Origin: Kordiimonadales bacterium
Lineage (GTDB): Bacteria > Pseudomonadota > Alphaproteobacteria > Sphingomonadales > Kordiimonadaceae
NCBI GenBank assembly: GCA_002401685.1
Contig: NVTU01000013.1
Location: 2,236-55,785, forward strand
Direction: 5' to 3'
Length of the DNA: 53,550 nt
A program made the translations under genes and the position numbers. Position 1 is the first letter of the stretch, and every line of letters begins with the position of its first letter. The notes under the pieces were generated by a model, which did not search any database, was not told where the DNA came from, and saw nothing but the letters and a program-made list of their open reading frames with translations. Positions 18,624 to 30,853 of this stretch are shown here, in pieces.

Positions 18624-20372
18624 TTGGTTGAAACGGACGCAATGACTGAAGTGACACCTACACTCGATCCAACGCTGCCACGGCGGCTCGCGGATTTTGA
18701 TACACTGGTTGAAGCCATCGAGTATGCTGCTCGTGGCAAGCGCGGTGCTAACTTTTTTAACGCTAAGGGCGAGGTCACAGACTCTGTGACTTGGGCCGAG
18801 ATTTGCGTACGAGCGAAGGTTATCGGGCGCAAGCTTGTGGGCCTTGGCTTTAAAAAGGGCGACCGTATAGCGCTGATCGCAGAGACCAGCGCTAACTTCG
18901 TTAGCTTTTTTGTTGGCTGCCAATATGCCAGCGTTCTTCCTGTACCTTTGCCTTTACCAACGTCTTTCGGCGGTAAAGTTGGCTATGTGTCCCAACTGCA
19001 GATGCAGATGAAAAGTTGCGACGCGAACGGTATTATGGCGCCAGTGTTCATGGACGAGATTATCAACGAAGCCAAAGAAGGCCTCGACTTAATCTTCACG
19101 GGCTCACTGGATGATTATCTAGCGACAGATGCTGATGCTGAACACTGTCTGCCAACACCGGATGACTTGGCCTACTTACAGTATTCTTCAGGCAGCACAC
19201 GTTTTCCGCACGGCGTTGCCGTGACACAGCGGTCACTTTTGGCTAATACGCACGGCATGAGTAAACACGGCGTACCACTCATCGAAACCGACCGCGTTGT
19301 TTCTTGGCTACCATTTTATCATGACATGGGCCTCGTTGGCACCTTAATGACATCGCTTACCTGCCAGATCTCGGTTGATTTTATCCCGACGGAAGAATTT
19401 GCACGTCGCCCCCTCAGTTGGCTACGCGTTCTTAGCGCCACTAAAGGCACAATGACCTATAGCCCCACTTTCGGTTATGACATCTGTGCGCGCCGCGCCG
19501 CAATGCGCTCCAGTGCACTCGAAGGCCTTGACCTAAGCAACGTACGTGTCGCAGGCATTGGTGCTGAAATGATCCGCCCAGATGTGCTTCGATTATTTGC
19601 TGAAACCTTTGAGCCCATCGGCTTCTCAAAATTGGCATTTCTGCCTAGTTATGGCCTTGCGGAATGCACACTTGGCGTTAGCTTTGGCCGCATCGGTGTC
19701 GGCATTGAAATTGATATGGTTGAAGAGCATTCCCTCACGGGGGAAAACCAATTTCTTTCAAAAGCCAGTAAAGACGGTCGGATGCGCGAAGTTGTCAATT
19801 GCGGCACGCCACTTCCAGAATATGACATTGAAATTCGCAATGAAGATGATGTAGCGCTTGCTCCTGAAAAGGTTGGCCGTATTTATTTGCGCGGCACTTC
19901 GGTGATGCGTGAATATTTCAATGATCCAGAGACAACAAGGGCCGTACTCAGCCCTGAAGGCTGGTTAGACACTGGCGATATGGGTTATCTGAAGGGCGGC
20001 GATATTTTCATCGTTGGCCGTGCCAAAGACCTTATCATTGTCAACGGCAAAAACCATTGGCCGCAAGACATCGAATGGGCAGCAGAACAGCTGGAGGAAT
20101 TGAAGACAGGCGACGTTGTTGCCATCTCGGCTCCGGGCGATAACGCTGAAGAAGTACCTATGGTGCTAGTTCAGTGCCGCACCTCTGATTTAGCGTTGCG
20201 GGCCAAAATGACGGACGATATCCGGCAGAAGATAATGCAATCAACAGGGGTGACATGTTTGGTTGAATTGGTAGGACCTCGTGCCCTGCCCCGCACGTCT
20301 TCAGGCAAATTAAGCCGCGTGAAAGCACGTGCGCTCTATATGTCGGGCCAATTACAAGCCATCGCCAGCTAA
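18624..20372 (+). CDS. Fatty acyl-AMP ligase / acyl-ACP synthetase (sphingolipid AasR-like)
   Basis: A 582-residue ANL-superfamily adenylating enzyme. It has the P-loop YSSGSTRFPHG (187-197), the SWLPFYHDMGLVGT motif characteristic of fatty-acyl-AMP ligases, LPSYGLAECTL, WLDTGDMGYL and the C-terminal PRTSSGKLSR lysine. It would activate a fatty acid and load it on the acyl carrier protein encoded two genes downstream. The start is TTG 18624 (GAGAAG upstream) or ATG 18642 (weaker site). First gene of a four-gene run with cerR-like, acp and spt. Caulobacter ceramide synthesis needs an equivalent acyl-ACP synthetase, which supports the role; substrate chain length is unknown. Confidence 0.9.
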   Translation: MVETDAMTEVTPTLDPTLPRRLADFDTLVEAIEYAARGKRGANFFNAKGEVTDSVTWAEICVRAKVIGRKLVGLGFKKGDRIALIAETSANFVSFFVGCQYASVLPVPLPLPTSFGGKVGYVSQLQMQMKSCDANGIMAPVFMDEIINEAKEGLDLIFTGSLDDYLATDADAEHCLPTPDDLAYLQYSSGSTRFPHGVAVTQRSLLANTHGMSKHGVPLIETDRVVSWLPFYHDMGLVGTLMTSLTCQISVDFIPTEEFARRPLSWLRVLSATKGTMTYSPTFGYDICARRAAMRSSALEGLDLSNVRVAGIGAEMIRPDVLRLFAETFEPIGFSKLAFLPSYGLAECTLGVSFGRIGVGIEIDMVEEHSLTGENQFLSKASKDGRMREVVNCGTPLPEYDIEIRNEDDVALAPEKVGRIYLRGTSVMREYFNDPETTRAVLSPEGWLDTGDMGYLKGGDIFIVGRAKDLIIVNGKNHWPQDIEWAAEQLEELKTGDVVAISAPGDNAEEVPMVLVQCRTSDLALRAKMTDDIRQKIMQSTGVTCLVELVGPRALPRTSSGKLSRVKARALYMSGQLQAIAS

Positions 20373-20376
20373 CATC

Positions 20377-21330
20377 ATGGCTAAAAAGTCCACTGGTATA
20401 AAACCGACCGTTGTTGCCTTAACCGGCGGCACGGGTTTTCTTGGCGGGCATATGCTCACCAAACTGCTCGCCGCAGGCTTTCACGTTCGCGCGCTGACAC
20501 GGCGGCCACAAGCGGACCGCGACTGCGTTGAGTGGATCGACGGCTCGCTGTCCGATGAAGCAAGTCTTTTCAAGTTATGTTCGGGCGCTGATCGCCTGAT
20601 CAACCTAGCGGGCCTAACAAAAGCCCTGAGCCGAAATATTTTCTTTGATGTGAATGTCGGCGGCAGCAAATTACTGTTTGAAGCTGCGGCTAAGGCTGGC
20701 GTGACACACGTTATGCATATTTCCAGTTTAGCCGCACGCGAACCGCGTCTGTCGCATTACGGTGCCAGCAAAGCTGGCACTGAAATGCTGCTAACAGCCC
20801 GTAAGTGGCCGTTTTCCTGGACCATTGTACGCCCACCAGCCATTTACGGCCCCGGCGATAAAGAAATATTCAAGCTGCTTAGAGCAGCGAAGTATGGTTT
20901 CCTTCCCTGGGCAGGCAGCACCAAGAACCGCTTTTCCATGATCCACGGCGAAGACCTCGCAGCCGCAATCACACAGTTATCTTATGAGACAAACCACACA
21001 GCCATATTCGAAATCGATGACGGTAAGACAGGTGGTTACAAGCTCAGCGACGTGGCTGAAGCGCTTGCAAACGATAAAGGCAAGTTGCCGAAAGCGTTCG
21101 CTGTGCCCTTTTGGGCGCTCGGAACTGTTGGCGCAATAAACGGCATTATTGCCAGCGCCATCAACCGGCCAGCAATGCTTACGCTGTCTTCGGCTTCCTA
21201 TATGTGCCATCCTGACTGGACAGTACGCGAAAGACGCCGCCCTAACATTGCCAATTGGACGCCTCAATTTGATCTTAAATCAGGCCTAAAGCATACGCTT
21301 GACTGGTATAAGAAAAACGGGCTTTTATGA
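20377..21330 (+). CDS. Extended SDR reductase, CerR-like (ceramide pathway)
   Basis: A 317-residue NAD(P)-dependent extended short-chain dehydrogenase. The nucleotide-binding motif is TGGTGFLGG (16-24), with the catalytic SS...YGASK triad (S116/S117, Y128, K132) and IVRPPAIYGPGD. ATG 20377 is used, 4 bp after the ligase stop; an in-frame start further upstream would overlap the ligase and lacks support. In Caulobacter an epimerase-like SDR (CerR) reduces the 3-keto group of oxidised ceramide and is encoded beside spt. The conserved gene order here argues for the same role; the ketone reduction itself is inferred. Confidence 0.87.
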   Translation: MAKKSTGIKPTVVALTGGTGFLGGHMLTKLLAAGFHVRALTRRPQADRDCVEWIDGSLSDEASLFKLCSGADRLINLAGLTKALSRNIFFDVNVGGSKLLFEAAAKAGVTHVMHISSLAAREPRLSHYGASKAGTEMLLTARKWPFSWTIVRPPAIYGPGDKEIFKLLRAAKYGFLPWAGSTKNRFSMIHGEDLAAAITQLSYETNHTAIFEIDDGKTGGYKLSDVAEALANDKGKLPKAFAVPFWALGTVGAINGIIASAINRPAMLTLSSASYMCHPDWTVRERRRPNIANWTPQFDLKSGLKHTLDWYKKNGLL

Positions 21331-21400
21331 TTGGATAGTTCCCGATATAAGAACGGTAACTTTCTACTTCAACATTCCACGAATTACGCAGGCGAACATT

Positions 21401-21646
21401 ATGGCCGATGCCAAAATACTCGAAAAAATCTCAGCGATCATCACTCCTATCAACCGCAAGGGGGTGGCGCTCACGGGTGCAACGTCTTTTGCAGTAGACT
21501 TAGAGTTTGATAGCCTAACTGTTATGGATATGGTTGCTGATATCGAAGATGAATTTGACATCATCCTGCCACTCAATCTTTTGCCAGATTTAGAGACCAT
21601 TCAGCATTTAGTTGATGCCGTAGAAAAAATCCTAAGCGAGAGCTAA
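21401..21646 (+). CDS. Acyl carrier protein, sphingolipid-dedicated
   Basis: An 81-residue acidic carrier protein with the phosphopantetheine serine in EFDSLTVMDMV (S38) and the usual helix II/III pattern (DIEDEFDIILP). ATG 21401 gives the normal ACP length; the open frame begins 102 bases earlier but that extension overlaps the SDR gene and has no ACP character. It sits between cerR-like and spt, and in Caulobacter a specialised ACP in the same position is needed for ceramide synthesis. It likely presents the acyl chain condensed by serine palmitoyltransferase. The stop is 4 bp before the spt start. Confidence 0.93.
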   Translation: MADAKILEKISAIITPINRKGVALTGATSFAVDLEFDSLTVMDMVADIEDEFDIILPLNLLPDLETIQHLVDAVEKILSES

Positions 21647-21650
21647 CTTC

Positions 21651-22856
21651 ATGGACTTATTCGATAAGTTTGACGGCGTAGCCGCGCTGCACGCCTCTTT
21701 GCCTTTCAAGGACGTTGATCCTTTTAAAGTTGTGATGGACAAAATTTTGTCTGAAACAGTTGCTGTTATCAATGGCCGTGAGACCATTATGGCGGGCACC
21801 AACAATTATATGGGCATGACCTTCAACGAAGAAGCGATGGAAGCTGCTAAGGCTGCCATTGACGCTTACGGCACCGGCACCACGGGCTCACGGGTCCTAA
21901 ACGGCACCTACGGCATCCACAAGGAACTTGAAGCGACGCTGTGCGAGTTTTACGACACAGAACACTGTATGGTGTTCTCGACCGGGTACCAGGCGACACT
22001 TGGCCTTGTTTCTGCACTTGGCGGCAAGGATGACTATATTATCATCGATGCTGACTGCCACGCCTCCATTTATGACGGCTGCTCAATGAGCAACGCCACC
22101 ATCGTGCGCTTTAAGCATAACGATGTTGAGAATATGGAGAGGCGCCTCAAGCGCATTCCTGAAGGCGCAAACAAGCTTGTGGTTGTTGAAGGCATGTATT
22201 CCATGCTGGGCGACGCCGCACCGCTCAAGGAAATGCTAGAGGTCGCTAAGAAGTACGGCTGCATGACGCTCGTTGATGAAGCCCACTCAATGGGTTTCTG
22301 CGGTGAAAAAGGCCGTGGCATAGCGGAAGAACTTGGCGTTGAGCACCTAGCGGATATCGTCGTCGGCACTTTTTCCAAGTCGGTTGGTACAGTTGGCGGC
22401 TTTGCAGTTTCCAATCACCCAAAGTTCGATATTTTGCGCTTTGTTTGTAGGCCTTACATTTTCACGGCCAGCCTGCCGCCGAGCGTGATTGCATCCGCCA
22501 CGGCGGCAATTAAAGCCATCAGCCGGTCAGGCAACCGCCGGGCACATCTGTGGGAAAACGCTCGCCGCTTGCATGCGGGACTCAAGTCAGCCGGTTTTGA
22601 TATGTGCACGAACACAGCGGAAAGCCCAATCGTGGCGGTGCACTTGCCAGACCCTGACGTCGGCACTCGCTTTTGGGAGCAACTGCTGGAAGAAGGCGTT
22701 TACGCCAACATGGCGGCCCCGCCAGCAACACCTTCGGGCGTGTTCCTGATGCGTGTAAGCGTATGCGCACAGCATACCACTGATCAGATTGATGAGATCA
22801 TCAAGCGCTTTAAAGTCACGGCCGAAAAAGTAGCGCTAGAGCTGCGCAACACATAG
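21651..22856 (+). CDS. spt: Serine palmitoyltransferase
   Basis: A 401-residue alpha-oxoamine synthase condensing L-serine with an activated palmitoyl group to 3-ketosphinganine, the first step of sphingolipid synthesis. Diagnostic residues are the PLP lysine in GTFSKSVGTVGGF (K243), the stacking histidine in DADCHAS (H137), VDEAHSMG (D209, H212) and TGSRVLNGTYGIH. The GTFSKSVGT context is that of soluble bacterial SPT rather than KBL or BioF. The acidic N terminus and the upstream ACP suggest acyl-ACP as donor. Last gene of the operon; a terminator at 22882-22908 follows. Confidence 0.93.
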   Translation: MDLFDKFDGVAALHASLPFKDVDPFKVVMDKILSETVAVINGRETIMAGTNNYMGMTFNEEAMEAAKAAIDAYGTGTTGSRVLNGTYGIHKELEATLCEFYDTEHCMVFSTGYQATLGLVSALGGKDDYIIIDADCHASIYDGCSMSNATIVRFKHNDVENMERRLKRIPEGANKLVVVEGMYSMLGDAAPLKEMLEVAKKYGCMTLVDEAHSMGFCGEKGRGIAEELGVEHLADIVVGTFSKSVGTVGGFAVSNHPKFDILRFVCRPYIFTASLPPSVIASATAAIKAISRSGNRRAHLWENARRLHAGLKSAGFDMCTNTAESPIVAVHLPDPDVGTRFWEQLLEEGVYANMAAPPATPSGVFLMRVSVCAQHTTDQIDEIIKRFKVTAEKVALELRNT

Positions 22857-22881: not shown

Positions 22882-22908
22882 AGGCGCCTACTTGAAGGCG
22901 CCTTTTTT
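22882..22908 (+). terminator. Terminator of the spt operon, overlapping the convergent gene
   Basis: Stem AGGCGCC (22882-22888) with GGCGCCT (22897-22903), an 8-nt loop, and T run 22903-22908. The downstream half of the hairpin lies inside the last codons (GAFK and stop) of the convergent Tam41-like gene, so coding sequence doubles as terminator. Confidence 0.85.
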
Positions 22909-23823
22909 GCGTAAATTCCAGAAAAGGGAAATACCCGCGATAATCGGGTGCTTGCGCATCCAGTCTTTAACTTCGATCTCAACACCAGAATGGCGGCGAA
23001 TTTTCCAAGCGATATAGTCGATACCGCCATCAAACGTGGCGGAAGCCTTCAATAAGCGCAGAAAGCTAACAAGCTTCCCGTTCCAGCGCCGCGCCAACCA
23101 TTTCATGCGAGGCGCAAAGGCGTCCTTCTGTTTCGCTAAAGGACGCTTTGGGGCTTGCGCAGCGTCAACACCCAAACATTTGAGTGCCAGCGGCGTCAGA
23201 GCGTCATACCGCTCCATATCCAGCAGGTATATCTCGCGGCCCTTACCGCGGGGTTCAGAACGGAGCTCAGAGGCATAAGTCTGCTCGAAAGCTTCAACCC
23301 ACAAATCACTGCTTTCCACAGCCCAGGGCTTGAGAGCCAATAAATTGGCCAACATGGTCGACACCGCCTGCGCGACACTATTTTCTACTGACGCCAAGGA
23401 GATGTCGTCGCGCGGGATGATAAATTTGCACGGCTGACAGAAACGTGCCCACACGGATACGTTCAGGCAACTCGGGCTGGTACGGTCTGCTAAATCCTGA
23501 AGCGATAAAACCGCATATTTTGAGCGAACAACCATGCCGCCCACATCAATCTCGTGGTAAAACACGTTAGGTGGCAGCATTTTATTGGCAAAAGAGAGCC
23601 CCCAAGTACCGTAAGCCTTGCGGTAATCATCAACAATTACATAAAAATCGAGGATTTTATCTTCGATTTCACCTGTTCGTAGACAAGATCCATAAAAAAT
23701 TACGCCCATAACACTATGGCCGTACCGGCGCCCAATGTCTTTGGCTGCAGTTTCTACTTCTTTTGGTACCGCGCGCTCCCATTCATCATGAATAAAAGCG
23801 GCCAATAAGGCGTTATCGGTCAT
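22888..23823 (-). CDS. Tam41-like nucleotidyltransferase (candidate lipid/head-group cytidylyltransferase)
   Basis: A 311-residue protein of the polymerase-beta nucleotidyltransferase fold. It has the GS motif in VIFYGSCLR (G45-S46), metal-ligand ILDFYVIVDD (D59, D65/D66), and then VFYHEIDVGGMVVRSKYAVL, CQPCKFI and a serine/alanine-rich helix ending near SDLWVEAFEQTYASELR. By memory comparison this order matches mitochondrial Tam41/TAMM41, the CTP:phosphatidate cytidylyltransferase. It starts 4 bp after the stop of the DAGK-family kinase, so the two form an operon. I infer that it makes a CDP-activated lipid or head group for sphingolipid or phospholipid decoration; the substrate is unproven. 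Confidence 0.75.
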   Translation of the reverse strand: MTDNALLAAFIHDEWERAVPKEVETAAKDIGRRYGHSVMGVIFYGSCLRTGEIEDKILDFYVIVDDYRKAYGTWGLSFANKMLPPNVFYHEIDVGGMVVRSKYAVLSLQDLADRTSPSCLNVSVWARFCQPCKFIIPRDDISLASVENSVAQAVSTMLANLLALKPWAVESSDLWVEAFEQTYASELRSEPRGKGREIYLLDMERYDALTPLALKCLGVDAAQAPKRPLAKQKDAFAPRMKWLARRWNGKLVSFLRLLKASATFDGGIDYIAWKIRRHSGVEIEVKDWMRKHPIIAGISLFWNLRKKGAFK

Positions 23824-23827
23824 AAGA

Positions 23828-24826
23828 TTAAGTCAGCGCAACAAAAGCCAGCGCTTTATCGCCGCGCAGCAAAATCGGTTTACCCGGTAGCGGATGATAA
23901 ATTTCGCCGTCGAGTGTTACAGGATCCGTTCCTTCGATACGCACTTCATCACCTTTGCGAACATGCGTCCCTTCAATCGACTTCTCACCGAATGCGCCAA
24001 AGATCAACCCTTTGATAGCCCGGAAAAAATTCTTGCCGCCAACCTCAATCGCAGCGAAGCGAAGGCCACCGACGCCCGATGTGCCGTAGGGCTTTAGCCC
24101 CAAGAGGAGTTTATTAAGAGTAGTCGTAATAACTGCAGAATATTGGCCAGACATACGGCCGTGGCCGGGCAAATTAATCGCCATTGGGTCAGAAATTAGC
24201 AATTCCTTGGATTTCCCGACGCCGAATGCAGCGGTAGTCAGCTTAAAAGCGGCTGCCAAATGGGCCAAACTGTTCGGCAAGCCTTTTGAATATGCGTTTT
24301 CGCGGCACCAGAAGATGCCTTTAACAATACCAGCGGCCCCAAAGAAAGTACCCACACGCGGCAATTCGCCATCGCCCAGATCCATCTCAATCAGGTTTCT
24401 TGATTGCAGACTTTCTTCAATACGGTTCTCACGTGCAATTTTCAGCAGTTTCTGGAGCACCTTAGTGGGCTTGCCCTTAGAGCCAAAGTCCGCTGCCGTC
24501 ATATTGGTTTTGCCACCCGGCAGAAACGCAATCGGCGGAATTTTGGTAAAGTGACTTTTGTAAAGAATAGAGGCGAGCACTGCGCCGATTGTGCCGTCAC
24601 CGCCGTTGATGATCAGCATCGCAGGGTTTGCTTTCCCGAATAGCGACAAGGCTTCATCTACGGTATCAATGCCGTTCAGCTCAAAGTGTACAACATTCGC
24701 ACTCGCTTCAACAAGCGCACGTACTGCTTCCATACCGCCAGCATTAGTGCTGCTAAGCGGGTTAGAAATGATTGCTACAAGCGGTATTTCAACGCCGTCT
24801 TTTAACGGTATCTTTTCCAGCTGCAT
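23828..24826 (-). CDS. DAGK-catalytic-domain lipid kinase (ceramide-kinase candidate)
   Basis: A 332-residue member of the diacylglycerol/sphingosine/ceramide kinase fold. The nucleotide-binding loop is LIINGGDGTIGAVL (N74-T79), with FLPGGKTNMTA, a central beta domain containing GFFGAAG-like TFFGAAGIVKG, and the C-terminal DPVTLDGEIY motif that closes YegS/DagK-type proteins. In Caulobacter a kinase of this superfamily phosphorylates ceramide as the first step to anionic sphingolipids. Being next to spt and coupled to a Tam41-like gene makes ceramide or a sphingoid base the leading substrate guess; diacylglycerol remains possible. Confidence 0.85.
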   Translation of the reverse strand: MQLEKIPLKDGVEIPLVAIISNPLSSTNAGGMEAVRALVEASANVVHFELNGIDTVDEALSLFGKANPAMLIINGGDGTIGAVLASILYKSHFTKIPPIAFLPGGKTNMTAADFGSKGKPTKVLQKLLKIARENRIEESLQSRNLIEMDLGDGELPRVGTFFGAAGIVKGIFWCRENAYSKGLPNSLAHLAAAFKLTTAAFGVGKSKELLISDPMAINLPGHGRMSGQYSAVITTTLNKLLLGLKPYGTSGVGGLRFAAIEVGGKNFFRAIKGLIFGAFGEKSIEGTHVRKGDEVRIEGTDPVTLDGEIYHPLPGKPILLRGDKALAFVALT

Positions 24827-24950: not shown

Positions 24951-25517
24951 CTAGCGTCGTCTGAGCTTGCGACGCTTCTTGGCTTTTTCTTCATCAGCAC
25001 CGAAAATATACTTCAGTTTCACCGAAACTTCGCTGACACCTTCAGGTACATTAACCATAACTTCTTCACCGTCCGGCGGGCCAAAGCCCAGGGACGGATT
25101 ATTGGAAAAGCCAAATCCTTCAGAGAAAAAGTCAGCTTTACCGTTTGCATTGATGTCGTGCATAATCACAAGAGCGAAAGTTCCTGCACTAGGGAGCGGC
25201 ACACATATATTCTGCTCATCGTCCAAAGCAACAGGCACATCAACACGCACCAGTTTTTTGCCTTTTTCTAAAAACTCATCAGGATCAGAACTATAAATCT
25301 GCGCCCGTAGGTTTCCCTCTTTCGCTCGGATATTTTCCACCCGGACATTAAGCGCCGCGCCGCCCGCTCCAGCGTCGCACGTGCTTACCGGTGCAATTTT
25401 CGGGGACTGCGCAACGGCACGCCCCACAAAGGCCGCGTTACCTGCTAAAATAGACAAACCACATAAAACCAATGCCTTAGTGGCAAAACTCGGTACAAAA
25501 GATGCCAAACGGGGCAT
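24951..25517 (-). CDS. DUF2141 exported protein
   Basis: A 188-residue protein with a signal peptide (about 1-32, MPRLASFVPSF then a hydrophobic core ending AVAQ) and a DUF2141 domain: NLRAQIYSSDPDEFL, VIMHDINANGKADFF and GFGFSNNPSLGFGPP. The family is periplasmic with an immunoglobulin-like or transthyretin-like look and unknown function. It ends in a basic tail (KAKKRRKLRRR). ATG 25517 has GGAG 8 nt upstream and gives a clean signal peptide; the frame extends further upstream without one. Divergent from the lptF-like operon. Confidence 0.85.
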   Translation of the reverse strand: MPRLASFVPSFATKALVLCGLSILAGNAAFVGRAVAQSPKIAPVSTCDAGAGGAALNVRVENIRAKEGNLRAQIYSSDPDEFLEKGKKLVRVDVPVALDDEQNICVPLPSAGTFALVIMHDINANGKADFFSEGFGFSNNPSLGFGPPDGEEVMVNVPEGVSEVSVKLKYIFGADEEKAKKRRKLRRR

Positions 25518-25714
25518 ATAAATCTCCAAAAAACATTCGCTACTACCTCCTGAAATGCCGCTGGATGGTGGCGAAATTAAGGTCGGTATGACGTCTAAAA
25601 GAGTTAGAGGCAACATGATTTCGTCACCATTGGGGTTTGTTATCTGTTAAAACTTTACGTGAAAGTAGTGAAAACACGCTTGATTAGTTAACAGAACAGG
25701 TGTAGCGCCAAGCT
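25518..25714. promoter_or_regulatory. Divergent promoter region with an 8-bp dyad
   Basis: Between the DUF2141 gene and the lptF-like operon. Arms TCTGTTAA (25643-25650) and TTAACAGA (25688-25695) form a perfect dyad with 37 bases between, ending 19 bases before the lptF-like ATG. This could be an operator or a long-spaced hairpin in the leader. Confidence 0.35.
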
Positions 25715-26911
25715 ATGTTTACCCGAATAGACCGCTATATAATAAAACAGGTTAGTGCCCCGCTTTTTGCGACACTGGGCCTCGCTGCGCTTTTGCTCAT
25801 ATTGGAGAAAATGCTGCGGCTATTTGACTTTGTCATGAACCAGGGCGGCCCAGCCAATGTGGTTTTCAAAATGCTTGTCAGCATGGCGCCGCTGTATATG
25901 GGCCTGGCGTTGCCGGTGGGCTTATTGCTCGGCGTCTTACTAGCCTTCCGCAAGCTATCCCTTTCAAGTGAATATGATGCTATTACATCGTCTGGGGTTG
26001 GCTTGCCGCGTCTGATGCGGCCTCTTCTGGTGATGGCTTTTTTACTGGCTATCGTCAACACGGCCCTTGTTGGATGGATACAACCCCACAGCATCTACAC
26101 CTACCGCACCCTTGAGTTTGACCTCAGAAGTGGTGCGCTTGGTGCCAGCATCCGGGTTGGCGAGTTCATTGAGATTGGTGAAGGCGTAACGCTGCTTGTA
26201 GAAGAGAGTTACGAGCAAGGCGCCGAACTGCGCGGTATATTTATGGAGCGGCCCGATGGTCCCAACGGCGAAGGCCGCATTGCGGTTACTGCTGAGCGTG
26301 GGGGATTCTATTCAACAGGGAATAACCACACCGTTTTATTACGGCTTTTCAACGGTGTGATCGCCAACTTCAGTGAAAACCAAAGTAAACCGCGCGTAGC
26401 CCGTTTTGAGCGCTTTGATTTCCCAATCAACCTCCCTACACGGGATAATTTCATCGAACGCGGCGGGGATGAGCGCGAAAAAACACTGCCCGAGCTGTTT
26501 ACAGAGCGCAATACTGCCCCCACCAGTCAAGAACGCGCGACTTATAATGCCAATTTCCATTGGCGCCTGATGCATAGCCTCAGCTTTTTCATTCTACCGT
26601 TTCTTGCTGTACCAATGGGCCTCACCAACAAACGCACAGGACGCGCAACGGGTATCCCCATCGGCATGACGCTCTTGATCGTCTATAACGAGCTAATGGA
26701 GGGCATGCGCACCGTCGTAGAAAACGGAGCTTCCCCTTTCGCCTCGATCTGGCTGCTATTTGTGGGTTTTGGCGCGCTAAGCTATTTCTTCTACAGGATT
26801 GCAGCCTTCAAGGCTGGCGGCGAACCGCTGGCCCTTGTGGACAGCCTGTGGGCTGCGCTAAGCGGGCCAATTAAACGGGCCGGCAAACGCCTAATGGGAG
26901 TAACCGAATAA
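25715..26911 (+). CDS. LptF-like permease (YjgP/YjgQ family)
   Basis: A 398-residue inner-membrane protein with the YjgP/YjgQ layout: two or three N-terminal helices (from IDRYIIKQVSAPLFATLGLAALLL), a periplasmic jellyroll region (about 130-280) and C-terminal helices (from LSFFILPFLAVPMGL). Together with LptG this family forms the permease that extracts lipopolysaccharide from the inner membrane. The TAA stop shares one base with the ATG of the next gene. Unlike most alphaproteobacterial lptFG pairs it is not followed by lptD/surA/pdxA but by a Wzx flippase, inside a sphingolipid locus, so it may serve a lipid other than LPS. Confidence 0.88.
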   Translation: MFTRIDRYIIKQVSAPLFATLGLAALLLILEKMLRLFDFVMNQGGPANVVFKMLVSMAPLYMGLALPVGLLLGVLLAFRKLSLSSEYDAITSSGVGLPRLMRPLLVMAFLLAIVNTALVGWIQPHSIYTYRTLEFDLRSGALGASIRVGEFIEIGEGVTLLVEESYEQGAELRGIFMERPDGPNGEGRIAVTAERGGFYSTGNNHTVLLRLFNGVIANFSENQSKPRVARFERFDFPINLPTRDNFIERGGDEREKTLPELFTERNTAPTSQERATYNANFHWRLMHSLSFFILPFLAVPMGLTNKRTGRATGIPIGMTLLIVYNELMEGMRTVVENGASPFASIWLLFVGFGALSYFFYRIAAFKAGGEPLALVDSLWAALSGPIKRAGKRLMGVTE

Positions 26912-28056
26912 TGGATCTCCGTACACTCAGGCGCTTCTTCCTACCGTCCCGTACCATTGCTGCCTATATGGTTAAAATGCATCTCAGCCGGTTCTTTGGG
27001 ATCCTGCTAGGCCTAACCGTTGTGCTGCTGTTTCTGGACCTGCTCGCGAATTCAGATAACGTGCTGGATCCGGAGGGCGCTACTTGGGTATCGCTGCTGT
27101 CCTATATTGGTCTTCGCGGGGCACAGCTTGTATCTCAGTTTCTGCCTTTTGCCGTCCTCTTGGCCTCACTGCTCACGTTCGCTACGTTGAACCAGCACAG
27201 CGAAGTTATCATTATGAAGGCGGCAGGCATGTCGGCGCATAATATCCTCCTACCGCTTTTCTTGGCGTCAACCATGATCGCTGGCTTTCATTTTATTTTC
27301 AACGAAACCGCTCTTGTCCGAAGCAATGCAGAATTAGATTATTGGCGCGCCAATGATTTCGCCGTTGACCTACCGCCCAACACTGCTCTGGCCGGCCGGG
27401 TATGGATCAAAGAAGGCAATCAGGTCATTTTAGCGGAATCTGTCAACCGGGTCCCAGGCAGTGTTGTTCTTGTTAAAGTATCCATCTATGAGCGCGACGA
27501 CGCCAAACGGTTGACTGCCATGACAAGGGCTGACCTTGCTCTCTACCAAAATGGCAAATGGACTTTGCATGATGTGCGACGCTTCGATACCGAAACACAC
27601 GAGCTTACCGTAGACGATGTTAAGACATGGGACACCCCTACCAGGCCAAGCCGGTTCCAAGCGCTGACCGTAAACCCAAAACATGTTTCGCTGCCGACGC
27701 TCTGGACATCGATCGAACGGCTGGATGCTGAAGGCATTCCCACCGACCGCTTAATGGCCAGCTTTTTGCAAAAAATTGCGGGACCAGCATCGACTCTCAT
27801 CATGCCACTGCTCGCTGCAATCGCCGCTTTCGGTCTGCACAGGGCAGGTAGCCTCGCGCTGCGTATCGTAATCGGCATGGCACTTGGTTTCAGCTTTTTT
27901 GTTGCCGATAACTTCATGCTTGCAATGGGCGAGTTTGGGGTCGCTCCGCCATTCCTTGCAGCGTGGGCACCGTTCGTTCTGTTCGTGCTCCTAGGATATG
28001 CGGTGATATTCCACACTGAAGAAGGCCACGGCAAAGCGGTAAAGAACACGCCCTGA
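26911..28056 (+). CDS. LptG-like permease (YjgP/YjgQ family)
   Basis: A 381-residue partner permease. It has N-terminal helices (SRFFGILLGLTVVLLFLDLL), the conserved LPFAVLLASLLTFATLNQHSE motif with coupling-helix context, KAAGMSAHNILLPL, a periplasmic beta domain (about 140-265) and C-terminal helices. Start and stop are both one-base overlaps with the neighbours (TAATG and TGATG), so the three genes are translationally coupled. The ATP-binding partner LptB is not in the window. It could be the essential LPS exporter or a sphingolipid-dedicated paralogue; the sequence alone does not decide. Confidence 0.88.
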   Translation: MDLRTLRRFFLPSRTIAAYMVKMHLSRFFGILLGLTVVLLFLDLLANSDNVLDPEGATWVSLLSYIGLRGAQLVSQFLPFAVLLASLLTFATLNQHSEVIIMKAAGMSAHNILLPLFLASTMIAGFHFIFNETALVRSNAELDYWRANDFAVDLPPNTALAGRVWIKEGNQVILAESVNRVPGSVVLVKVSIYERDDAKRLTAMTRADLALYQNGKWTLHDVRRFDTETHELTVDDVKTWDTPTRPSRFQALTVNPKHVSLPTLWTSIERLDAEGIPTDRLMASFLQKIAGPASTLIMPLLAAIAAFGLHRAGSLALRIVIGMALGFSFFVADNFMLAMGEFGVAPPFLAAWAPFVLFVLLGYAVIFHTEEGHGKAVKNTP

Positions 28057-29606
28057 TGCCGAACACACAAAACAACGATATCCAGCCAAACGAGGACAGG
28101 AAACGCATCGCAAACGGTGCTGGCCTGGTGTTTCTTGGCCGCATGGGTGCGCTCATTGAAGCCGCATCGCTGTTTGTTTTTGCTTGGTACTACGGCTCAG
28201 AAACCTTCGGCCTGTTCGCCTACTTATGGACCATCCTCACGGTTTCAACCGTTGTATCAGATGTTGCCATGACAACAGCGATGCAACGATTCGTGCCTAA
28301 AGCAAAAGAAGGTGATGCCGAAAAATACGTTGGGTACGCGCTAAAGCTGACGCTGATTATCAGCACAGCAATCGCTGCAGTCGTTTGTTTTTTTGCGCCT
28401 CACTTAGCGCCTTTAATCAACATCGGCGCAGCTAGTGCAGAGCATCTTACCTCCGTCATCCGCATCTATATCTGGGTGCTTCCCTTATGGACAATGGTTG
28501 AGGTTGCCACCGCTGCGATCCGCGCACGCCGCACCTTCGGCCCCGAAATTCGCATTCGTATATTTTACGAGCAAGGATTGAGGCTGATAGCGGCGACAGT
28601 TTTTGCCGTACTCGGGTACCTAACCTACGGGCTTTTTATCGCTCATTTGGTGAGTGTTTCACTAGCCGCGCTTTTGGCGCTTCGCCTTGTTAGTAAACAA
28701 TATGACCTGAGCGCGATTATACGTGCGCCGCTCACAGGCCCAGTTGCTAAAGAAATGCGGCAATACGGGTTGTCGATTATGCCCGCCAATATTATCAAAA
28801 AACTTTTCAGTGCCTTCCCGGTGATTTACCTCAACTGGCTAATGCCGGGCGCTGCGGGCGCGGATGCTAGTGGCTTCTATACACTTGCCCGAAAGATCGC
28901 CAGCATCATCCTCGCAATCCGCCTCACGTTTGAATATGTGATGGCACCCCTTGCCGCAGAAAAAGAAGGCATGGGGGACCGCAAAGCTCTGCAGGTTATG
29001 TACGGGTTTGCCACACGGCTTTCGATCAGTGTTGCCCTACCTTTCGGTGCAGCGCTTATCCTTGCCCGGAATGACATCCTTGCGGGTGTTCCGCCCGAAT
29101 TTCAGGTAATCTCCAGTGCTATTGCTATATTGTGCATTGGCCGGGTGGTCGAAGCTGCGACCGGGCCTTCGTCTGCAATCATTGAAATGCTGGCCCATCG
29201 CTCCCTGCCGCCGCTGAACGCGCTCCTTGGGTTCTGCACCCTGCTTGCAGTTGGGTATTATATGGTGCCGCTATACGGCGTGACCGGCATGGCTATCGGC
29301 GCTGCGATCGGTATCAATGTTACGGCGTTGCTGTCTATGATTGAGACCATGGTGCTATTTAAACTGTACCCCTACTGCAAGCTGCTCATTCGCCCGCTGA
29401 TTGCCTCGCTTATATTAACGGGCGGCATCGGCGCAATGATCCCTTACAGTGAAACGTGGCCAACACCGCTCGGTTTTATCGCTGCTATCACCAGTTTTCT
29501 GTTGGCGCTGTTCCTGCTGATACGCTACGGCCTGACCTATGAGGACACCGCTTCGCTCGGCAAATTGAACAAGCTGAAGCCAAAACGCAAACCACAGACC
29601 AAGTAA
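28056..29606 (+). CDS. Wzx-type oligosaccharide/lipid flippase
   Basis: A 516-residue polytopic membrane protein with about 12-14 helices of the MATE-like polysaccharide transporter class. It starts with NGAGLVFLGRMGALIEAASL and YYGSETFGLFAYLW and has the conserved loop RAMP-like segment AIRARRTFGPEIRIRIFYEQGLR. Such flippases turn lipid-linked sugars or lipids across the inner membrane. It is coupled to the lptG-like gene by TGATG. No glycosyltransferase is nearby, so a glycan cargo is not supported by context; a decorated sphingolipid is a possible cargo (inference). Confidence 0.85.
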   Translation: MPNTQNNDIQPNEDRKRIANGAGLVFLGRMGALIEAASLFVFAWYYGSETFGLFAYLWTILTVSTVVSDVAMTTAMQRFVPKAKEGDAEKYVGYALKLTLIISTAIAAVVCFFAPHLAPLINIGAASAEHLTSVIRIYIWVLPLWTMVEVATAAIRARRTFGPEIRIRIFYEQGLRLIAATVFAVLGYLTYGLFIAHLVSVSLAALLALRLVSKQYDLSAIIRAPLTGPVAKEMRQYGLSIMPANIIKKLFSAFPVIYLNWLMPGAAGADASGFYTLARKIASIILAIRLTFEYVMAPLAAEKEGMGDRKALQVMYGFATRLSISVALPFGAALILARNDILAGVPPEFQVISSAIAILCIGRVVEAATGPSSAIIEMLAHRSLPPLNALLGFCTLLAVGYYMVPLYGVTGMAIGAAIGINVTALLSMIETMVLFKLYPYCKLLIRPLIASLILTGGIGAMIPYSETWPTPLGFIAAITSFLLALFLLIRYGLTYEDTASLGKLNKLKPKRKPQTK

Positions 29607-29719: not shown

Positions 29720-30853
29720 GTGACTGCTGTATCAATTGTAGAAATCAATGACAAAGCTGGCCTGAAGCGCTTCGTTGACTGTACCCGGACCATCTACAAG
29801 GATGACCCCAACTGGGTGCAGCCGCTGATGCTTGAGCGTATGGATGTGCTGCAAGCCCACAAGAACCCCTATTTCGATCATGCGGACGTCCAGCTATGGG
29901 TAGCCGTGCGGGACGGCAAAGACGTTGGCCGCATCAGCGCGCAGATCGACAAAATGGCACAGGCGCAGTGGGGCCCCAATTTGGGCCACTTCGGTTTTTT
30001 CGAAGCGGTCGACCAAGAAACAGCCGAAGCCCTGTTGGCAACTGCGGAAGCATGGCTTAAATCCCGCGGTATGGTGCGCATGCAAGGCCCGTGGTCCTTC
30101 TCTGCCACCGAAGAGGTCGGCACACTGATAGAAGGCTTCGAGACCCCGCCCTGCATCATGATGCCGCACGGAAGACCCCAGTATGATGGCTGGCTGAAGA
30201 GCACCGGGCTCGACAAAGCCAAAGACATGTATGCCTATTCGATCAATCTGCGCAATCCAATGCCAGACCGCGCCATGCGCATCGTAAAAATGGCTGAGAA
30301 AAACAAGCGTGTTGTCATGCGCCCGCTCAATATGAAGAAATTCGACGATGAGCTAAAAATCATCATGGATATTTATAACGAAGCCTGGGACCAAAACTGG
30401 GGCTATGTGAAGTTTACCGAAAAGGAAGCCAAACACGCTGCGGCTGGCCTGAAGCCCGTTGTAAAAGCGTACCGCACCTATATCTGCGAATATGACGGCG
30501 AGCCCGTTGCTTTCATGCTAACCATCCCTGACGTGAACCACAAAATACGCGACCTTGACGGCAAACTACTACCAACCGGCATATTCAAACTTCTCTACCG
30601 CATGTTCAACGGCAAAGAAGACCGCTGCCGCGTGCCGCTGATGGGCGTGCGCAAACAGTTCCAGAAAAAGCCGCTCGGTGCCGCCATGGCCATGTGGATG
30701 ATTGACGTCAGCCGCCAGCACGTTGAGAAACGCGGTGCCTACTTCGGCGAACTTGGCTGGATTTTGGAAGACAATGACGGCATGAACAGCATCCTGACCG
30801 AAATCGGCTGCGTAAAATACAAAACCTACCGGGTGTATGAGAAGCCCATCTAA
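29720..30853 (+). CDS. GNAT-fold N-acyltransferase, candidate bacterial ceramide synthase
   Basis: A 377-residue cytosolic protein of the two-lobed GNAT-like family that begins with an IYKDDPNWVQPL segment and continues through FFEAVDQETAEALL, GPWSFSATEEVG, a middle IYNEAWDQNWGYVKFTE motif and the C-terminal ELGWILEDNDGMNSIL. In Caulobacter the bacterial ceramide synthase is an acyltransferase of GNAT-like annotation encoded a few genes from spt. The shared locus and family make that the best guess here, acylating the sphingoid amine. It starts with GTG, GGGGAGA upstream. If not ceramide synthase, it is an uncharacterised acyltransferase. Confidence 0.72.
   Translation: MTAVSIVEINDKAGLKRFVDCTRTIYKDDPNWVQPLMLERMDVLQAHKNPYFDHADVQLWVAVRDGKDVGRISAQIDKMAQAQWGPNLGHFGFFEAVDQETAEALLATAEAWLKSRGMVRMQGPWSFSATEEVGTLIEGFETPPCIMMPHGRPQYDGWLKSTGLDKAKDMYAYSINLRNPMPDRAMRIVKMAEKNKRVVMRPLNMKKFDDELKIIMDIYNEAWDQNWGYVKFTEKEAKHAAAGLKPVVKAYRTYICEYDGEPVAFMLTIPDVNHKIRDLDGKLLPTGIFKLLYRMFNGKEDRCRVPLMGVRKQFQKKPLGAAMAMWMIDVSRQHVEKRGAYFGELGWILEDNDGMNSILTEIGCVKYKTYRVYEKPI

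Follow-up and report, generated by a model that had tools for sequence, protein, structure and literature searches.

The closest described counterpart of the locus studied here is the ceramide phosphoglycerate (CPG) pathway of Caulobacter. Its kinase CpgB (CC_1160) has been shown biochemically to phosphorylate ceramide; in vitro its activity on diacylglycerol was comparable to that on ceramide, and deletion of cpgB was reported to leave the phosphatidate level unchanged (PMC10331486). After the kinase step, CC_1161 (CpgC) is required for CPG, and CC_1159 (CpgA) and other genes are required for the addition of a second phosphoglycerate. Among the Caulobacter cluster genes tested, CC_1160 and CC_1161 were the only ones needed for CPG itself (PMC11324152). 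The Conclusions of that paper mention that CC_1161 has a CDP-diacylglycerol (CDP-DAG) synthase domain and suggest that ceramide is NDP-activated; section 9 describes the sets of orthologues present in six further proteobacteria. The idea of a nucleotide-activated ceramide for CC_1161 is therefore already in print, as is a CPG-only gene set: that of Zymomonas mobilis, which lies in ten scattered regions and accounts for CPG without CPG2 (PMC11324152), whereas the Kordiimonadaceae genes described below form one cluster. The words Tam41, Mmp37, DUF2141 and Kordiimonas do not occur in the main text of the same paper.

For the step from ceramide-1-phosphate to CPG, the mechanism of CpgC was still called unidentified in a 2025 paper (PMC12275187) and likewise in a 2026 preprint (PMC13228409). 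CDP-glycerate is the product of a different cytidylyltransferase, CpgD, and deletion mutants of cpgD still make CPG (PMC12275187). A further point of comparison is Tam41, the mitochondrial CDP-DAG synthase, which retains one of the three nucleotidyltransferase acids (PMC11646218) and binds membranes via a positively charged C-terminal helix (PMC7018664). What is new here is a test of the Tam41 fold, the description of a single-acid site, the distribution across 385 genomes and the Kordiimonadaceae cluster itself.

A lipid kinase and a nucleotidyltransferase in a sphingolipid gene cluster

We analysed a 53,550-nucleotide stretch of contig NVTU01000013.1 (the window). The source genome, a 2.68-Mb assembly that is 77% complete, is probably from Kordiimonadaceae; the first eight related loci comprised seven from Kordiimonadaceae and one from an unclassified alphaproteobacterium. 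The original prediction described a nucleotidyltransferase gene 4 bp past a DAGK-family kinase gene and convergent with spt, and it named Caulobacter as a lead. Both genes of the pair are on the minus strand with the kinase first, the ATG of the nucleotidyltransferase lies 4 bp past the kinase stop, and 31 bases separate its own stop from that of spt. The coordinates, the gap and the PF00781 and NF047599 matches (Table 1) all confirm this layout, and the pair does lie in a phosphosphingolipid cluster of the Caulobacter type.

Table 1. Features of the sphingolipid gene cluster, in window positions.
Feature	Position	Strand	Basis
Fatty acyl-AMP ligase (AasR-like acyl-ACP synthetase)	18624..20372	+	NCBIfam NF006624, 773.5 bits, cut-off 600
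NAD-dependent epimerase/dehydratase (CerR-like)	20329..21330	+	PF01370 6.5e-21, scanned from 20371
Acyl carrier protein (AcpR-like)	21299..21646	+	PF00550 1.9e-8
Serine palmitoyltransferase (Spt), convergent with the pair	21651..22856	+	NCBIfam NF047599, 596.2 bits, cut-off 500
Hairpin with T-rich tail at convergent junction	22882..22903		Pattern scan only
CpgC-like nucleotidyltransferase with a Tam41-like fold, 311 aa, proposed CTP:ceramide-1-phosphate cytidylyltransferase	22888..23823	-	ORF, AlphaFold2, Foldseek
CpgB-like lipid kinase of the DAGK family, 332 aa, proposed to act on ceramide	23828..24826	-	DAGK_cat PF00781 2e-12
DUF2141 protein	24951..25616	-	PF09912 1.3e-21; 124 bp upstream of kinase, same strand
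LptF/LptG-family permease (LptF-like)	25715..26911	+	PF03739 3.7e-62
LptF/LptG-family permease (LptG-like)	26911..28056	+	PF03739 1.2e-67
MATE/polysaccharide-type flippase candidate	28056..29606	+	PF01554 1.5e-5
GNAT-like protein, candidate ceramide synthase CerS	29720..30853	+	PF00583 0.001, 19.7 bits, below cut-off 20.7

The CerR-like ORF is given as listed, and its true start may be further in. By eye, the N-terminal stretch of the DUF2141 protein looks like a signal peptide. The flippase candidate has a homologue in another CpgC locus (L047) that matches PF01943 (1.4e-10). The GNAT-like gene owes the name CerS to the published N-acyltransferase CC_1154 (PMC11324152), and it has homologues in 35 of the 53 CpgC loci compared below. 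The hairpin at the convergent junction is a possible shared terminator of spt and the nucleotidyltransferase gene; across the region, the pattern scan gave 10 terminator-like sites versus 4.5 expected by chance.

The best structural model of the kinase had a pLDDT of 74.3, against 45–47 for the other four of the five models. It matched bacterial diacylglycerol kinases, sphingosine kinase 1 and YegS, as well as chain B of a TIM22 complex entry, which we take to be AGK. In the kinase sequence, GGDG is found at residue 75 and the CxxxCxxC motif is missing. CpgB, too, is without CxxxCxxC, in contrast to human ceramide kinase (PMC10331486).

The window pair can be mapped one-to-one onto Caulobacter by synteny, a step that the original prediction had left undone. 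Gene order and published annotation support the kinase as the counterpart of CpgB (CC_1160 / CCNA_01218) and the Tam41-like gene as that of CpgC (CC_1161 / CCNA_01219). Compared by motif and gene position, the two kinases are both of the DAGK type, with GGDG and without CxxxCxxC, and both adjoin CpgC. The window nucleotidyltransferase gene lies between the ceramide-kinase gene and spt; Caulobacter CpgC has the same place and the same cluster partners, and the published hint of a CDP-DAG synthase domain agrees with the Tam41 likeness of the window gene. Three members of the Caulobacter cluster, CpgA, the metallophosphoesterase and CpgD, are missing from the cluster in the window, which has DUF2141 in addition.

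The order of partners from CC_1161 to CC_1152 is seen in members of the CpgC sequence family; the window has some of these partners. Two loci, L058 and that of Roseomonas marmotae (L104), contain the kinase, the CDP-alcohol transferase, the phosphoesterase, LptF/G, the CerS-like gene and both nucleotidyltransferases. The gene order of L058 equals the published CC_1165–CC_1152 order, plus a hydroxylase gene and with a HIT gene where Caulobacter has CC_1157. In the Caulobacter-type set on the R. marmotae plasmid, the CpgC relative is annotated as a 'hypothetical protein' and lies between the kinase and a convergent Spt-type gene.

Fold and active site of the CpgC family

No Pfam model matched the window CpgC or any of eight close relatives. 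An AlphaFold2 model built from 8 sequences (mean pLDDT 84.9) had Tam41 (6ig4, 6ig2) as its top three PDB matches in Foldseek, with E values of 1.2e-6 to 2.1e-6 over 277–301 columns, 17% identity and TM scores of 0.43–0.49, which are modest. Ranks 4–20 were taken by aminoglycoside nucleotidyltransferases, HalB and another nucleotidyltransferase-like protein (TM 0.25–0.36), and no bacterial Tam41 structure was named among the 50 PDB matches listed. The predicted model thus supports a Tam41-like fold for the second gene, which is a statement of homology.

The Pfam family of Tam41, PF09139, did not take in the window protein; it was matched by three of 34 CpgC family members. When 17 distinct relatives were scanned singly, 15 had no match, L031 reached 29.0 bits against a cut-off of 24 and L028 reached 23.2. 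The same model run over 398 genomes of the phylum gave three matches, none above cut-off. Searches of PDB sequences that started from CpgC, by phmmer and by profile, did not reach Tam41. Two CpgC profiles did find a nucleotidyltransferase-domain protein (9xbd) in PDB sequences, at E 0.019 and 0.52. Other PDB sequence matches (thioredoxins, hydrogenases, iron receptors and others) had E values of 0.7 or worse and were rejected, and two weak matches of the window CpgC, to ANT(9) (0.053) and a thioredoxin (0.095), were set aside. The original prediction had drawn the Tam41 likeness from the order of motifs and had made it depend on structure prediction. It is upheld by the three best PDB matches, and also by the distant relatives that match PF09139, L031 above the cut-off.

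Across 34 aligned CpgC members, Y44, G45, D59, K102, W125, R127, Q130, P131, E186, R188 and E190 never varied. D59 was kept in 34/34, whereas position 61, the next canonical acid, was acidic in 0/34; E91, a possible third acid, was kept in 28/34. With the acids assigned from motif and model, not by superposition on Tam41, only one of the three acids usual in nucleotidyltransferases is invariant in the family, which is the single-acid pattern reported for Tam41. The last 81 residues of the window protein contain 19 K/R versus 6 D/E. The window CpgC therefore resembles mitochondrial Tam41 in having it as best structural match, in its one conserved acid and in its cationic C-terminus. Unlike Tam41, it is tied to sphingolipid genes; the two share 17% identity, and the Pfam Tam41 model misses the window protein.

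Distribution of CpgC and the Kordiimonadaceae variant

To describe the distribution of the family, we used a CpgC profile (E ≤ 0.001) and the Spt of the window (E ≤ 1e-90) on 385 alphaproteobacterial genomes. CpgC was found in 42 genomes, which carry 23 family labels, Spt in 49 and both in 41 (Fisher 5.6e-46, with related genomes treated as independent). Spt occurred without CpgC in 8 of its 49 genomes. Only G334 had CpgC without an Spt at this threshold, and there CpgC adjoins an Spt-like gene of lower score (L078).

Gene neighbourhoods were compared in 53 loci: the window, the eight first found, 40 of the 41 other matches in the class and four of 17 plasmid matches. The omitted class match, G163, has a CpgC gene split over two contigs. 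Counts of genes per locus are lower bounds, because a number of the stretches are short or are cut off by the end of a contig (for example, L051, 3.0 kb; L010, 5.6 kb). The gene labels come from profiles built mostly on those same loci; calling genes by longest ORF mislabelled GC-rich loci, and the counts therefore use the profile-based table. The kinase was found in 50/53 loci, on the same strand as CpgC in all 50 and as the next labelled gene in 48, including a Diaphorobacter plasmid in which it lies downstream of CpgC with two unlabelled genes between. Spt was found in 40/53 loci and was convergent in 37. Within the stretches read, the kinase label was absent from L060, L061 and L065. Three loci (L080 and L081, from two genomes that belong to the same order as the window, and L102, from Qipengyuania citrea) had the kinase–CpgC pair and DUF2141 with no other labelled partner in these stretches. 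These differences between partner sets suggest that the core is the kinase–CpgC pair, and that the later head-group steps vary.

Of the 53 loci, 19 had a CpgA-like CDP-alcohol transferase, 20 had DUF2141 and two had both; the DUF2141 protein is a possible periplasmic partner of the pair. The window-type flippase occurred in 11/53 loci, none of which had CpgA in the stretch, a contrast limited to one flippase profile, since Caulobacter has a flippase gene, CC_1166 (PMC11324152). This profile also left unlabelled a gene near Spt that is annotated as a 'lipopolysaccharide biosynthesis protein' in the Roseomonas record.

Next, we focused on the CpgA/CpgD branch in Kordiimonadaceae. The CpgA profile, which gave 344–485 bits for four annotated CDP-alcohol transferases in plasmid CpgC clusters, found no strong CpgA in eight Kordiimonadaceae-group genomes. 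Matches there reached at most 42.3 bits, bar one: L100, in the Kordiimonas marina genome, scored 118.9 bits, is on a different contig from the CpgC of that genome and has a single NCBIfam match, far below cut-off. Similarly, no strong CpgD was found in ten Kordiimonadaceae-group genomes (best 31.7 bits in the window's genome and at most 79.8 in nine relatives, versus 272–375 bits in four control genomes). As the window's genome is 77% complete, these absences rest on its relatives. Judging from these sequence searches, Kordiimonadaceae seem to lack the branch responsible for the second phosphoglycerate. Because there is no strong CpgD and at most a weak CpgA homologue, the product is probably not a diphosphoglycerate.

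The same genomes contain other CDP-alcohol transferase-type genes (PF01066). Among seven other Kordiimonadaceae-group genomes, five had two such genes and two had four matches; the incomplete genome of the window had one gene. In four of the five two-gene genomes the pair looks like PgsA plus PssA. NCBIfam pgsA was above cut-off in L084 and L086, the two of these four that were scanned, and in the window's genome (L002), and pssA scored 108.3, 100.0, 106.4 and 106.3 bits in the four, against a cut-off of 107. The fifth genome, G399, has a second gene of a different type (L096). A CC_1153-like gene was present outside the CpgC cluster in 10/10 Kordiimonadaceae-group genomes (151–241 bits). These genes were rejected as markers of a second sphingolipid locus, as the eight stretches around them, among ten retrieved, contained no kinase, CpgC or Spt label.

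Proposed reactions of the pair

Taken together, we think it fairly likely that the window pair is CpgB–CpgC and that it makes ceramide-1-phosphate and then, with CTP, CDP-ceramide, followed by an unnamed transferase and export. By analogy with the Caulobacter enzyme, the kinase would convert ceramide to ceramide-1-phosphate. CpgC would then use CTP to attach CMP to the phosphate group of this lipid, yielding CDP-ceramide and pyrophosphate, a step that we infer from the fold, the place of the gene and Caulobacter genetics. Its cationic C-terminal part would bring CpgC to the membrane for this reaction. A further enzyme would swap CMP for glycerate or another alcohol, and the flippase and the LptF/LptG pair would carry the finished lipid to the outer membrane. 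Such export has been proposed for Caulobacter by others, and for the window cluster we infer it.

The fold and the single-acid site are those of an enzyme whose known product is CDP-DAG, and CpgC could accordingly be a true Tam41-type CDP-DAG synthase fed with phosphatidate by the kinase. Phosphatidate may also be a product and substrate of the pair, because CpgB phosphorylates diacylglycerol in vitro, about as actively as ceramide (PMC10331486). That L031, the best PF09139 scorer, sits in L060, a locus in which no kinase was found in the stretch read, also counts against the CDP-ceramide reading, as do the modest TM scores, the lack of a Pfam match for the window protein and the eight Spt genomes without CpgC. 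We nevertheless consider a CDP-DAG synthase unlikely. The original prediction was set to fall if the pair made CDP-DAG in a genome with no other CdsA; the window's genome has a separate CdsA (PF01148, 7.2e-53), which makes a housekeeping CDP-DAG role of CpgC unlikely. CpgC moreover tracks Spt, with 41 shared genomes against one CpgC-only genome among the 385, deletion of cpgB in Caulobacter did not change phosphatidate (PMC10331486) and CC_1161 mutants lose CPG (PMC11324152).

Nucleotidyltransferase folds take varied acceptors, and the original prediction had offered activation of a head group with CTP as an alternative. CpgC would then activate glycerate or phosphoglycerate instead of the lipid, and CDP-activated glycerate is indeed used in the pathway (PMC12275187). 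This role fits CpgD (CCNA_01210), which is also a cytidylyltransferase of the Caulobacter pathway but has another fold, of the inositol-1-phosphate cytidylyltransferase type; it does not fit the window gene. CpgD already makes CDP-glycerate, and CPG survives its deletion (PMC12275187). The kinase accompanies CpgC in 32 of the 34 loci in which no CpgA was found, and the ten Kordiimonadaceae-group genomes have no strong CpgD homologue, so that we regard head-group activation by CpgC as improbable. The need for just CC_1160 and CC_1161 among the cluster genes tested (PMC11324152) would also be explained if CpgC converted ceramide-1-phosphate to CPG without freeing a CDP-lipid, or both activated and transferred. 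However, direct attachment of glycerate was described as energetically 'not very favourable', with an extra enzyme suggested (PMC11324152), and the fold of CpgC is that of a nucleotide transferase. We give this one-enzyme route a small chance, similar to that of a CDP-DAG synthase.

Returning to CDP-ceramide as the product of CpgC, a broader reading is that the CpgC enzymes, as ceramide-1-phosphate cytidylyltransferases, form a branch of the Tam41 fold devoted to sphingolipids, with CDP-ceramide as their common hub. In Kordiimonadaceae, a housekeeping CDP-alcohol transferase of the PssA or PgsA type, or another enzyme, would then use CDP-ceramide to make a head group other than diphosphoglycerate. 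We put this forward tentatively, as somewhat short of an even chance. If it is true, different bacteria would draw different phosphosphingolipids from CDP-ceramide. A single search of a limited literature collection for CDP-ceramide in bacteria found no paper; if CDP-ceramide were confirmed, bacteria would own a CDP-activated sphingolipid. The Tam41 fold and the single-acid site make the CpgC step concretely testable with CTP and ceramide-1-phosphate. The Kordiimonadaceae cluster, which has no recognised CPG2 branch, could reveal the head group of the smaller module.

Genes beside the kinase and the ceramide synthase candidate

A DUF2141 gene lies beside the CpgB-like lipid kinase, and the N-terminal stretch of its protein, read by eye from the sequence, resembles a signal peptide. 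By profile tally, DUF2141 occurs in 20 of the 53 loci that carry CpgC, the Tam41-fold nucleotidyltransferase, and only 2 of the 53 contain it together with the CDP-alcohol transferase CpgA. The term DUF2141 is absent from the main text of PMC11324152.

Location of the DUF2141 gene in the window
Feature	Coordinates	Strand	Position
DUF2141 gene	24951-25616	minus	124 bp upstream of kinase

Three loci from Kordiimonas relatives (L006, L008 and L009) have an additional gene between the flippase and the candidate ceramide synthase CerS, which in L006 matches a fatty acid desaturase. A hydroxylase-type gene, usually near CerS, is found in 27/53 loci. At the flippase-CerS position, the window holds neither type of gene.

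Clusters with two CpgA-like genes

Six clusters (L045, L049, L050, L053, L061 and L101) each contain two CpgA-like CDP-alcohol transferases, one adjoining the kinase or CpgC and the other LptG. One of these copies could be the missing CDP-ceramide user in these clusters.

L101 is located on pDCB2, a plasmid of the betaproteobacterium Diaphorobacter sp. JS3051 that was typed as conjugative IncP. The CpgC relative there is accompanied by a kinase, a pair of CDP-alcohol transferases, LptF/LptG and an NRPS gene, and mercury resistance genes lie alongside; no gene in the L101 stretch read was labelled Spt (serine palmitoyltransferase).

A separate CDP-alcohol transferase group

The Kordiimonas marina genome and G399, a Kordiimonadaceae-group genome, share a separate conserved gene group (L116 and L117) in which a CDP-alcohol transferase and a flippase-like gene accompany a nucleotidyltransferase that weakly resembles CpgD (74 and 65 bits with the CpgD profile). 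This group may be a source of another head-group lipid.
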